Part shown: piece by piece, positions 6,398 through 10,306 of the stretch
Layout of the letters: each line of letters opens with the position of its first letter
Numbering within the stretch: the stretch's first letter is position 1
From: Candidatus Binataceae bacterium
GTDB taxonomy: Bacteria > Desulfobacterota > Binatia > Binatales > Binataceae
NCBI GenBank assembly: GCA_035308025.1
Contig: DATGHL010000026.1
Span: 62,001-126,000 of the forward strand
Reading direction: 5' to 3'
DNA: 64,000 bases
Position numbers and translations under genes: made by a program
Notes under the pieces: model-generated
The model's input: only the letters and a program-made list of their open reading frames with translations
The model's database searches: none
Told to the model about the DNA's origin: nothing

Positions 6398-7656
6398 GCC
6401 CAACGCCGCAGAACAAGCAGGACGGTCCGCGAGCCGCATCGAGCGCCGGAGTCGACTACAAGGCGATCGCGCTGCTCTCGGCCGCCCATCTCTCGGACGA
6501 CGTCAATCAGGGCGTCGTGCCGGCGATGTTGCCGTTCTTCATCGCCGCCAACCACCTGACCTACGCCGCTGCGGCTGGGCTCGTGCTCGCGCAGACGTTG
6601 TCGGCGTCGGTCGCGCAACCTGCCTTTGGGATGCTCGCCGATCGGCGGCCGTCGCCGTGGTTGATTCCGGCCGGCCTGATGCTCGCCGGCGTCGGCGTCG
6701 CGATCAGCGGCCTCGCGCCGAGCTATGCGCTGATCTTCGCCGCGATCGCACTGAGCGGTCTCGGCATCTCGGCCTTTCATCCCGAGGCGGCGCGTCGCGT
6801 CCGCTACCTGAGCGGCTCGCGGCAGGCGACGACTATGAGCCTGTTCACGGTCGGTGGGATGGTCGGTTTCGCCCTCGGACCGTTATTTATCACCCCGACC
6901 CTGATTGCCTTCGGGACGCGCGGTGCGCTCGTGCTGGCAGCTCCCGTCATCGCCATGGGCGCGGCGGTGACGTGGCAACTGCCGCGCATCACGACGGTGC
7001 ATGAATCCAATCGCCACAATGCGCGTGCGCTCGCTGAGGCGCCCGAGCGCTGGAGCGACTTCGTCCGGCTGACCGCGGTCGTAATCTCCCGCTCGATCAC
7101 ATTTTTTGGCCTAAACACCTTTGTGCCGCTCTATTGGATCCATGTCCTGCACGGCTCGCAGAGCGGCGCCGGCCTCGCTCTCACTACGATGCTCTTCGCC
7201 GTCGCCGTCGGGACGCTGATCGGCGGCCGGCTCGCCGACAGCTACGGACGGCGGATCGTGATCGTGGTCTCGCTCGCCGTCGTGGTTCCTTTGATCATGC
7301 TGTTTCTCAGCCTCAATAACCTGATCGCGGCCGGTGCGATGCTTATTCCCGTCGGAATCGTACTGGCGGCGTCGAACAGCGTCGTCGTCGTGATGGCGCA
7401 GGAATATCTGCCCAATCGCGTCGGCCTCGCCGCGGGCGTGACGCTGGGGCTTTCGATGACCATCGGCGGGCTCCTGATGCCGCTCTTCGGGACGATCGCC
7501 GACCACTACGGCTTGGCGCGCGCGCTGTTTGTGCTGGGGCTGCTGCCGGCGATTGGCTTCGTCCTGAGCCTCGGTCTGACCGAAAGCACCGGCTCGATCG
7601 ATGAAATCAGCGCAACAGTTGCCACAAAATCAACGCGTTCAATGCTGCGACGTTGA
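6391..7656 (+). CDS. MFS transporter, fosmidomycin-resistance (Fsr) type
   Basis: A 421-residue integral membrane protein with about 12 hydrophobic segments. The opening HLSDDVNQGVVPAMLPFF and the loops GMLADRR and GGRLADSYGRR place it with the Fsr branch of the major facilitator superfamily, proton-driven drug or metabolite exporters in the inner membrane. The only upstream start in frame is TTG at 6391, lying in the end of a repeat element and without a clear ribosome site, so the start is uncertain. The last 50 bases overlap the convergent VKOR gene. Confidence 0.85.
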   Translation: MISPTPQNKQDGPRAASSAGVDYKAIALLSAAHLSDDVNQGVVPAMLPFFIAANHLTYAAAAGLVLAQTLSASVAQPAFGMLADRRPSPWLIPAGLMLAGVGVAISGLAPSYALIFAAIALSGLGISAFHPEAARRVRYLSGSRQATTMSLFTVGGMVGFALGPLFITPTLIAFGTRGALVLAAPVIAMGAAVTWQLPRITTVHESNRHNARALAEAPERWSDFVRLTAVVISRSITFFGLNTFVPLYWIHVLHGSQSGAGLALTTMLFAVAVGTLIGGRLADSYGRRIVIVVSLAVVVPLIMLFLSLNNLIAAGAMLIPVGIVLAASNSVVVVMAQEYLPNRVGLAAGVTLGLSMTIGGLLMPLFGTIADHYGLARALFVLGLLPAIGFVLSLGLTESTGSIDEISATVATKSTRSMLRR

Positions 7657-8239
7657 TACACTTCATGCACAGGCTTTTGATCCTGATCACCATTACATAG
7701 CTTAAATAGGCGCTGATCAGGACCGCGGTAAGTGCAAACAGTAGCGCCGCTCCCGGCGCTTTCACGTAAATCAGAAATAATAACGTAACGTAGAGCGCAA
7801 CGCCGAACGCGGAATTCGGAATCCCGAAAGTCGCGCTTTCCGGACTTTGCAGCACAGCCTCAGTATGGTCATTGCGGGCTCCGCTACACCGGCACCGCGG
7901 TATCTTGTAATCGGGATCCGCCGAGAGTCTGTATTTGTAGTAGGTAGTCTGCAGCGAATAGATCAGGCCGAACGCCGCCAGTACGTACAGTGGATTTGCG
8001 TGGATGGTGTGCGTCAGCAACTCGGTCAGAATCCAAAAGCCGAGAATCGACCCGGTTACCATCTTGAGAAACTCCAGCAACAAGGCTGGGACCCGGCCTG
8101 GGACGTAACTCTCAAGGAAATTGCCCGAAACCACAGCTTGTCGGATACGCTCCGATACAACCTGACGCCGCACTTCCCGCTCGCGCACCCGATTCGAAAT
8201 CACGCTCAACCACGTGGTCCCAGCCGTATTATGAAACAT
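7607..8239 (-). CDS. VKOR-family disulfide-bond-forming membrane protein
   Basis: A 210-residue integral membrane protein of the vitamin K epoxide reductase family, which oxidises protein thiols (usually through a thioredoxin-like partner) and passes electrons to quinone. Visible are about five membrane segments, the family stretch LQSPESATFGIPNSAFG (conserved Ser 132) and the C-terminal redox pair C191-M-K-C194. In the loop, C118 matches the first family cysteine, but the second (expected at 126) is Thr; an extra C116 sits beside C118. The start is ATG 8239, preceded by GGAGAGG; TTG 8254 is less likely. It directly follows the Cys-rich metzincin gene, 18 bases after its stop, which suggests that protein is its substrate. 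Confidence 0.85.
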   Translation of the reverse strand: MFHNTAGTTWLSVISNRVREREVRRQVVSERIRQAVVSGNFLESYVPGRVPALLLEFLKMVTGSILGFWILTELLTHTIHANPLYVLAAFGLIYSLQTTYYKYRLSADPDYKIPRCRCSGARNDHTEAVLQSPESATFGIPNSAFGVALYVTLLFLIYVKAPGAALLFALTAVLISAYLSYVMVIRIKSLCMKCINVAALNALILWQLLR

Positions 8240-8257
8240 TTTATTCCTCTCCAATCC

Positions 8258-9922
8258 TCATCGCGGCGGCTGCGGCGGCTGGGTTTCCGAGTCTGGCAAC
8301 TCCGGCGCCTGCACAAAAGCCGCCAGATCACTGGAAGTCACATACGGGCTCAGCCGGATCATGCACCACTGCAGGCGGGTGTAGGCCCGGCGAATGTTAC
8401 CGCTCGGGTCCATCACCTTGCTGATGTGCAGCGTCGTGTCGTTCTCACAATTCGGCTTGTCACTGTCGTGGAGCAGGCCGCACTGATGCCCGCATTCGTG
8501 CAGGTAGGTCTCAGCGACCCGCACGATGTTTTGGTTCGCGGCGGAAATATTCTCGACCACCAGCGCCATCATGCGGTTCGTGTCCGCCTCGAACGGCAGC
8601 ACCGCCTTTTGCACGAACACCAGCTTGCGGCTCCCGCGAAACGTGACGATGGTATAGCCGAGCAGATCGTTGCAGCCGACCGACGAGTCGTCCATGTTGT
8701 ATTCCGACACGAAAAAGGTCGTGACCGCAGAGGTGTCGCCGTCCTTGTTCAGTAAAAGGAAGTTGGTCTCGTCGAAGGTAAGTGTCTGGCCCGATCCGCA
8801 CTTCATATTTTCGGCAACCGCGGTGTTGGGCGGCGTGAATTCGATCTCGCCATTTACCAGATTCAACGAGGTGTTGGTCGGATGGCTGCAGGTCGAATCC
8901 GTATCAACGCGCATACCCATATCGGGCAGCGACCGATCACCGAAATAATCCTGAGAAGCCTTGTTGGTGTATTTATTGTTCCAATCGTTATAGTTATTGC
9001 TCGCCAATATGGCATCGCCAGCGAGCCATGCCTGGACGTTGGGATTATAGGTGAGCAAATTCTTGTGAAAGTCCGTGCCAGTTCCGTCGTCCGCTGGTGC
9101 GCTCGCAAAGATATCGCTGAACAGATGGCTGGCGATCTCCATCACCTTATACGGGTAATAGAGCAACGGCCGGCCCGGCACGTACCCGCCGCCCTGCTCT
9201 CTGATGAAATGGCCGGTGATCAGATTACCGCGCGTGGCGACTTCGTAGTATGAGATTGCTCCCGATGCCGCATCAACTATCGGCGCCAGCGGCTTCCCGC
9301 TATCGCTCAATATGTAGCCTCGAACGTTCTGGTCCGCTGCTCCGTCGGCATTCGCGTTGTTCACATAGACAAACCAGTCGGAATAGCCGTCATTGTTGCG
9401 GATAATTTTCGGGGCAACCCGGAAGCGGCGCGGATCGGTGTTGTTGAAGATCTCGGCGAGGTACGTCCAACATAGGAACCAGCGGATCACAATGTCGATC
9501 AGCGTGCAGACCCACGTCAGGATCATCGTGACGATCGCTTCGATTAGGTTGAGTAGCTGGATTATGGCCTGAACGATATAATTGCATACGAGCCGAGTGA
9601 TAAACTGAACAACAACTTGTAAAACGTACGTCCAGGCACAGATAATATTTGTAACAACGCCGCAGACGTTGTTGCAGACGTTCTCACACCCGCAATCACA
9701 GCCGAAAATCCCGCAGAAGAAGTCGCAAATGCCGCAGATGACGCTGCAGACCGCATTGCATACGGTCTGGACCACGCTGTTGCAGAGCCACTCGAGGACC
9801 TGGGTGACGACGTTTACAGCTTCCTGGATGAGCTGGCAGAGCTGAACCAGGATATATTCAACGACGGAGACGACGATCTGGATGAGCCTGATGACAGGCT
9901 GAAAGACGAGTTGGCAGAGCAC
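8258..9922 (-). CDS. Cys-rich membrane-type protein with C-terminal metzincin protease motif
   Basis: A 554-residue protein of no family I recognise. Residues 1-155 are almost entirely hydrophobic or amphipathic with 17 cysteines (C3 to C151), many at four-residue spacing (55, 59, 63; 66, 70; 75, 79, 83, 87). Residues 160-554 are a polar, Asn/Asp-rich globular part with the zinc motif H475-E-C-G-H479-Q-C-G-L-L-H485-D and a Met-turn-like KVMDP at 502-506, which together define metzincin metalloproteases. No ordinary signal peptide is present. The start is GTG 9922 with GGAGGT 8 bases upstream. Base composition is visibly less GC-rich than in neighbours, which may mean transfer. The VKOR gene follows in the same operon, so disulfide formation in this protein is the likely link. 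The proteolytic role is inferred from the motif only. Confidence 0.75.
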   Translation of the reverse strand: MLCQLVFQPVIRLIQIVVSVVEYILVQLCQLIQEAVNVVTQVLEWLCNSVVQTVCNAVCSVICGICDFFCGIFGCDCGCENVCNNVCGVVTNIICAWTYVLQVVVQFITRLVCNYIVQAIIQLLNLIEAIVTMILTWVCTLIDIVIRWFLCWTYLAEIFNNTDPRRFRVAPKIIRNNDGYSDWFVYVNNANADGAADQNVRGYILSDSGKPLAPIVDAASGAISYYEVATRGNLITGHFIREQGGGYVPGRPLLYYPYKVMEIASHLFSDIFASAPADDGTGTDFHKNLLTYNPNVQAWLAGDAILASNNYNDWNNKYTNKASQDYFGDRSLPDMGMRVDTDSTCSHPTNTSLNLVNGEIEFTPPNTAVAENMKCGSGQTLTFDETNFLLLNKDGDTSAVTTFFVSEYNMDDSSVGCNDLLGYTIVTFRGSRKLVFVQKAVLPFEADTNRMMALVVENISAANQNIVRVAETYLHECGHQCGLLHDSDKPNCENDTTLHISKVMDPSGNIRRAYTRLQWCMIRLSPYVTSSDLAAFVQAPELPDSETQPPQPPR

Positions 9923-10219: not shown

Positions 10220-10235
10220 TGTTTCACGTGAAACA
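10220..10235. promoter_or_regulatory. parS chromosome-partitioning site (perfect 16-mer)
   Basis: TGTTTCACGTGAAACA is the canonical bacterial parS sequence, bound by ParB as the chromosomal centromere and usually located near the replication origin. It lies in the gap between the metzincin operon and mrp. A near-copy follows at 10291. No parA, parB, dnaA or gidAB gene lies in the window. Confidence 0.88.
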
Positions 10236-10290: not shown

Positions 10291-10306
10291 GGTTTCGCGT
10301 GAAACA
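10291..10306. promoter_or_regulatory. Second parS site, 14 of 16 bases
   Basis: GGTTTCGCGTGAAACA differs from the perfect site in two positions (1 and 7). It is 56 bases from the first, and clusters of parS sites with small deviations are usual for ParB loading regions. Confidence 0.65.

Follow-up and report, generated by a model that had tools for sequence, protein, structure and literature searches.

Why should the gene for a cysteine-rich, protease-like protein be followed directly by the gene for a disulfide-forming enzyme? The question is raised by a 64,000-nucleotide stretch from a Candidatus Binataceae bacterium (GCA_035308025.1, contig DATGHL010000026.1, positions 62,001 to 126,000; hereafter the window), in which a 554-residue protein with a hydrophobic, cysteine-rich N-terminus and a metzincin-like C-terminal domain is encoded next to a member of the VKOR family. 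A sequence-only reading had described 17 cysteines in the first 151 residues of this protein and a dedicated VKOR beginning 18 bases past its stop; both genes were present as described, the spacing holding when the VKOR is started at ATG. Unless stated otherwise, residue numbers are those of the 554-residue protein and of the 210-residue VKOR. The answer that we prefer, with about an even chance of being right, is that the two genes form a self-contained oxidase–substrate cassette in which the VKOR would oxidise a signal-less, mirror-cysteine hairpin of the metzincin-like protein; from the evidence below we infer the substrate relationship, the disulfide pairing, and the protease activity with its use.

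Two full-length homologues were found in Gemmatimonadota (L004, 67% identity; L006, 59% identity). Alignment of the three sequences showed that all 17 N-terminal cysteines, located in residues 3–151, are invariant. Twelve of them are spaced 26-18-8-4-4, 16, 4-4-8-18-26, an exact mirror kept in all three sequences and improbable as a chance arrangement, and the six mirror pairs each sum to 142. Under uniform placement, at least six pairs at one sum arose in 44 of 200000 trials; when the cysteines were kept to the helix flank on which they are observed, all six paired in 1 of 200000. AlphaFold2, run on two sequences, predicted helices at residues 2–72 and 78–158 (553 numbering) with a confidence score (pLDDT) of ~80, about 70 and 80 residues long and drawn as a hairpin, the remainder being unfolded. 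Both helices are amphipathic (period ~3.7 residues), and in neither did any of 2000 shuffles reach the hydrophobic moment. Moreover, both helices carry their cysteines on a flank of the polar stripe with the same handedness, so that in an antiparallel hairpin the cysteines can face each other; this handedness argument is our own reasoning. The angles of the six pairs show symmetry near +92 degrees, as in antiparallel helices that face each other. Because mirror cysteines run along one flank of two amphipathic helices drawn as a hairpin, we read the N-terminus as a predicted helical hairpin that is putatively zipped by disulfides. This mirror-spaced architecture had no match to any described family. 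Tape-measure matches in PHROGs were weak and limited to the hydrophobic helices.

The same cysteines might instead bind zinc or an iron–sulfur cluster, or stay redox-sensing thiols that the VKOR reduces or regulates. The CxC, CxxC and CGC clusters could bind metal, and zinc is bound by reduced small Tims via their twin CX3C motifs (PMC3759932). We consider this explanation improbable, since pairwise staples account for six exact mirror pairs spread across 137 residues better than metal sites do, and bacterial VKORs normally oxidise. The zipped hairpin is consistent with the earlier proposal that the cysteines are substrates of the VKOR, which is probable given that mirror spacing fits inter-helix disulfides.

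The VKOR matched Pfam PF07884 with 75.1 bits (curated cut-off 27.5), with homology over ~120 residues. A survey of 327 VKOR family sequences found Cys43, Cys51, Ser57, Cys132 and Cys135 fully conserved (PMC4555120). The VKORs of the three loci (hereafter module VKORs) keep the CxxC in the last helix (Cys132/135 equivalents), the first loop cysteine and the Ser57 equivalent, whereas the Cys51 equivalent, the second loop cysteine, is Thr, Ser and Thr in the three proteins and a CxC is present instead; the four redox cysteine positions are invariant among them. For comparison, VKORs were drawn from 395 and 298 genomes of the two phyla concerned, and 40 of these VKORs were measurable. All 40 carry C-x4-7-C, and CxC occurred only in the module VKORs, which scored 363–387 bits against their own subfamily profile, compared with at most 41 bits for the next VKORs. 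Judged by homology, the enzyme is thus a divergent relative and no canonical VKOR. Ahead of the canonical first helix, all three module VKORs also have an added hydrophobic segment, and their N-terminus is basic; a thioredoxin domain is absent.

The charge pattern bears on where this enzyme would act. With helix borders set by simple rules and therefore approximate, the number of Lys and Arg residues on the catalytic side minus that on the other side was +10, +10 and +8 in the module VKORs; the other 40 VKORs had a median of −5 and ranged from −10 to +1. Under the positive-inside rule, these K/R-rich catalytic-side loops are a strong hint that the active-site cysteines face the cytoplasm, opposite to those of ordinary VKORs. 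Such an orientation agrees with a substrate that lacks a recognisable signal peptide: by inspection, neither a signal peptide nor an n-region was found at the N-terminus of the 554-residue protein. The earlier suggestion of a secreted protease, and with it periplasmic oxidation, therefore lost ground on both counts.

A periplasmic arrangement nevertheless deserves weight, in which the first hydrophobic helix is an uncleaved export signal, the VKOR is ordinarily oriented, and the hairpin is oxidised in the periplasm as part of a membrane-anchored or surface protease. Cysteine-rich metzincins are usually secreted; canonical VKORs face the periplasm, and the ten DSBA-family domains encoded in the genome could serve as a shuttle. 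We regard this arrangement as possible but rather unlikely, because the signal-peptide pattern is missing, a K/R cluster follows the hairpin immediately in all three sequences, the VKOR charges run opposite to the canonical pattern, and the VKOR loop lacks the canonical cysteine pair that is used with DsbA-type shuttles.

The proposed oxidase–substrate cassette gained support from the recurrence of the pair. A scan of GTDB genome contigs returned one full-length relative, in a Gemmatimonadetes metagenome-assembled genome (MAG), and a profile search of 395 genomes of the Gemmatimonadota phylum returned this relative and one more. Pairing with a VKOR had been set beforehand as a test, and the VKOR lies directly downstream in all three copies found, two of them in Gemmatimonadota, the two genes being 18 bases apart, overlapping at an ATGA, and 3 bases apart, respectively. 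In the Gemmatimonadetes MAG, contigs L010 (1-100) and L082 (3217-3313) share a 97-base overlap inside the end of the VKOR gene and are thus adjacent; because the next gene on the second contig is convergent, the operon there ends with the VKOR. By inspection, the genes flanking the pair differ among the three loci and no further neighbour is evidently common. In both genes, differences between homologues follow the order third > first > second codon position, indicating purifying selection on both. In addition, the module VKOR is the only Pfam-level VKOR in the source genome and its subfamily was seen only beside this protein, so that the claim of a dedicated enzyme is supported; DsbB was not found in the source genome. 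A second VKOR match in that genome proved by inspection to be an unrelated membrane protein.

The distribution of the pair is sporadic. Among 297 genomes of the phylum to which the window belongs, one had the protease-like protein, namely the source genome itself, and a further sample of ~40 same-family genomes contained no homologue of it. The GC content is 0.555 for the protease-like gene and 0.531 for the VKOR gene, compared with 0.597–0.668 in seven measured neighbours and 0.625 over the whole window. The sequence-only reading had already taken the lower GC content as a hint at acquisition. Because of this low GC content and the lack of a homologue in the same-family genomes, recent acquisition of the pair by the source genome is likely, and the two-gene cassette is apparently rare and mobile. 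No relatives were found in IMG/VR, plasmids or phages, and PADLOC gave no match. A viral scan with an 8-Cys spacing pattern returned low-complexity DNA only and no credible hairpin; a 6-Cys pattern, run over 161 genomes with a relationship to the Gemmatimonadota homologue, picked up simple repeats for the most part, along with the gene already known; and an N-terminal profile search of 247 genomes gave only weak, composition-like matches. A plasmid search with a consensus for a family in which Cys/Val/Trp-rich N-termini are fused to reprolysin-like domains yielded only an unrelated protein; this family is a possible lead. A hit in a same-class genome (L013 252-734, minus strand) belongs to another kind of HExxH protease (HEIGHAVGLFHEQSRP) that by eye looks astacin-like; it is a chance match and no relative. 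The sporadic distribution, low GC content and downstream membrane gene would also suit a toxin-like protease whose membrane partner provides immunity or processing: the VKOR-fold protein would protect or release the protease, with redox chemistry secondary. The four invariant redox cysteine positions of the VKOR would be unneeded for immunity alone, and we give this explanation very little credence.

The C-terminal domain contains HECGHQCGLLHD at residues 475–486 and VMDP with Met504. His475, Glu476, His479, Gly482 and His485 of the motif are invariant in the three sequences, as is Met504, 19 residues past the third His. Thus, of the HExxHxxGxxHD motif and Met-turn-like VMDP described earlier, the ligands, the Gly and the Met stood; the Asp is Gln in one homologue, and VMDP varies except for its Met and Pro. 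The three sequences share 22 invariant cysteines in total, and one homologue has exactly 22. The HExxHxxGxxH motif and the Met that follows resemble metzincins of the reprolysin (M12B) type, unlike which the protein matches only below Pfam cut-offs (Reprolysin_5, 14.9 vs 27 bits). The best match of a three-sequence profile to PDB sequences was a snake-venom metalloproteinase (E 0.016), confined to the motif region. AlphaFold returned no fold for this domain (pLDDT ~30). The assignment as a metzincin is probable on these motifs, and the earlier notion of a zinc protease finds support in the motif and the sub-threshold reprolysin matches only, not in structure prediction.

These results can be assembled into a mechanism. 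The first gene would yield a metzincin-like protein without a recognisable signal peptide, whose N-terminus would form two long antiparallel amphipathic helices; mirror cysteines would meet across the helix seam and be stapled by up to six inter-helix disulfides, with additional disulfides within the loop and within the C-terminal domain. The product of the second gene would be a divergent five-helix VKOR in the membrane, its loop CxC and its CxxC toward the cytoplasm. The hairpin would be oxidised by the VKOR at the inner membrane surface, a docking site for the greasy helix faces, and electrons would travel via the CxxC to quinone. Once oxidised, the hairpin would be rigid, and a protease that could not fold otherwise would thereby be completed. 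Our guess is that the protease-like protein is a membrane-docked or lysis-released effector.

Several points weigh against this reading. The bacterial cytoplasm normally reduces disulfides, and the VKOR orientation depends on the positive-inside rule, applied to helix borders that are approximate. Another oxidation route is possible through the ten DSBA-family domains of the source genome; several of these domains may be unrelated isomerases of the same fold. Only three sequences, from a limited sample, are at hand, and the metzincin fold of the C-terminal domain is a candidate. Three inner cysteines and Cys151 have no place in the pairs, and shuffling the order of the gaps gave the mirror in 1120 of 200000 trials (0.6%). 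The mirror was noticed after the data were seen, and the AlphaFold turn (residues 74–78, 554 numbering) lies about five residues past the mirror centre, favouring another register with five pairs and sums of 153–154; the exact cysteine pairing therefore stays a prediction. That alternative register was itself no better than chance.

Related systems are known for parts of this arrangement. An inverted archaeal VKOR from Aeropyrum pernix (the 2017 work of Hibender et al., cited in PMC12453122) is reported to promote disulfides in two compartments, and cytoplasm-facing activity is predicted for the module VKOR; the archaeal enzyme has a housekeeping role, in contrast to the one-substrate cassette proposed here. 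DsbL/DsbI, a dedicated Dsb pair, is encoded beside its client arylsulfate sulfotransferase, and the oxidase gene thus adjoins the client gene as in the window, although those enzymes are periplasmic, of the DsbA/DsbB type, and serve another client. In mitochondria, Mia40 (CHCHD4) uses a CPC active site to oxidise helical hairpins that carry twin CX3C or CX9C cysteines (PMC11832770, PMC3759932). In the present pair, the enzyme carries a CxC and the hairpin a twin CX3CX3C with 15 residues between its arms; the oxidase belongs to the VKOR family, the hairpin greatly exceeds those of small Tim or CHCH proteins in length, and there are six candidate pairs rather than two. Pfam scans of either protein gave no CHCH, small Tim or Mia40/ALR match at E up to 1, and the Mia40 relay is the nearest working analogue in mechanism only, without homology found. 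More tentatively, and at somewhat less than even chance, we propose a horizontally moving cassette with its own cytoplasmic-side disulfide relay, in which an inverted VKOR with a Mia40-like CxC zips a signal-less hairpin attached to a protease. If true, this would be a bacterial, convergent two-gene counterpart of the mitochondrial relay, a CxC loop and a reversed orientation would be shown to be compatible with VKOR function, and one protein would become heavily disulfide-bonded despite the reducing cytoplasm, offering a compact tool to make many disulfides there. Relative to the sequence-only reading, the new points are the mirror of cysteines and the CxC VKOR with its reversed charges, the idea of a dedicated VKOR is strengthened, and secretion and zinc-protease activity are putative.

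Features of the locus, with positions in the window
Feature	Position	Strand	Basis
Cys-rich helical hairpin and metzincin-like protein, 554 residues, GTG start	8258..9922	-	Open reading frame; full-length homologues; coding substitution pattern
N-terminal domain, residues 2-159, two long predicted amphipathic helices, 17 invariant Cys	9446..9919	-	AlphaFold2; hydrophobic moments
Mirror Cys set 3,29,47,55,59,63 / 79,83,87,95,113,139	9506..9916	-	Spacing statistics; invariance in three homologues
15-residue Cys-rich loop between putative zipper arms, Cys 66,70,75,77	9689..9733	-	Sequence; AlphaFold turn
Polar C-terminal domain, invariant Cys 345,375,417,492,520	8261..9427	-	Alignment
HExxHxxGxxH zinc-site motif, residues 475-485	8468..8500	-	Ligand positions invariant in three homologues; sub-threshold Reprolysin_5
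Met504, Met-turn candidate	8411..8413	-	Invariant Met, then Pro two residues on, in 3/3
Dedicated VKOR, 210 residues, ATG start at 8239	7607..8239	-	Pfam PF07884; ribosome-binding site and start; follows partner in 3/3 loci
Extra N-terminal transmembrane segment of VKOR (TM0)	8009..8062	-	Hydropathy peak in all three VKORs
Loop CxC (Cys116, Cys118) in place of canonical spaced Cys pair	7886..7894	-	Only in three module VKORs
CxxC redox centre (Cys191, Cys194)	7658..7669	-	Invariant

Regarding the gene calls, GGAGG precedes the GTG start of the 554-residue open reading frame. The VKOR frame spans 7607-8254 (minus strand) if counted from a TTG; the ATG, with GGAGAGGAATAAA upstream, appears the better start and gives the 18-base gap to the stop of the protease-like gene. 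The VKOR gene and a convergent gene for a major facilitator superfamily (MFS) transporter share 50 bases tail to tail (7607-7656). At the other end of the pair, ~300 bases upstream of the protease-like gene and adjoining a gene for an Mrp-like ATPase, the parS-type palindrome TGTTTCACGTGAAACA occurs once exactly and once with two mismatches, at 10220-10235 and 10291-10306 (plus strand; chance expectation 0.01), and the cassette may accordingly lie near the chromosome origin.
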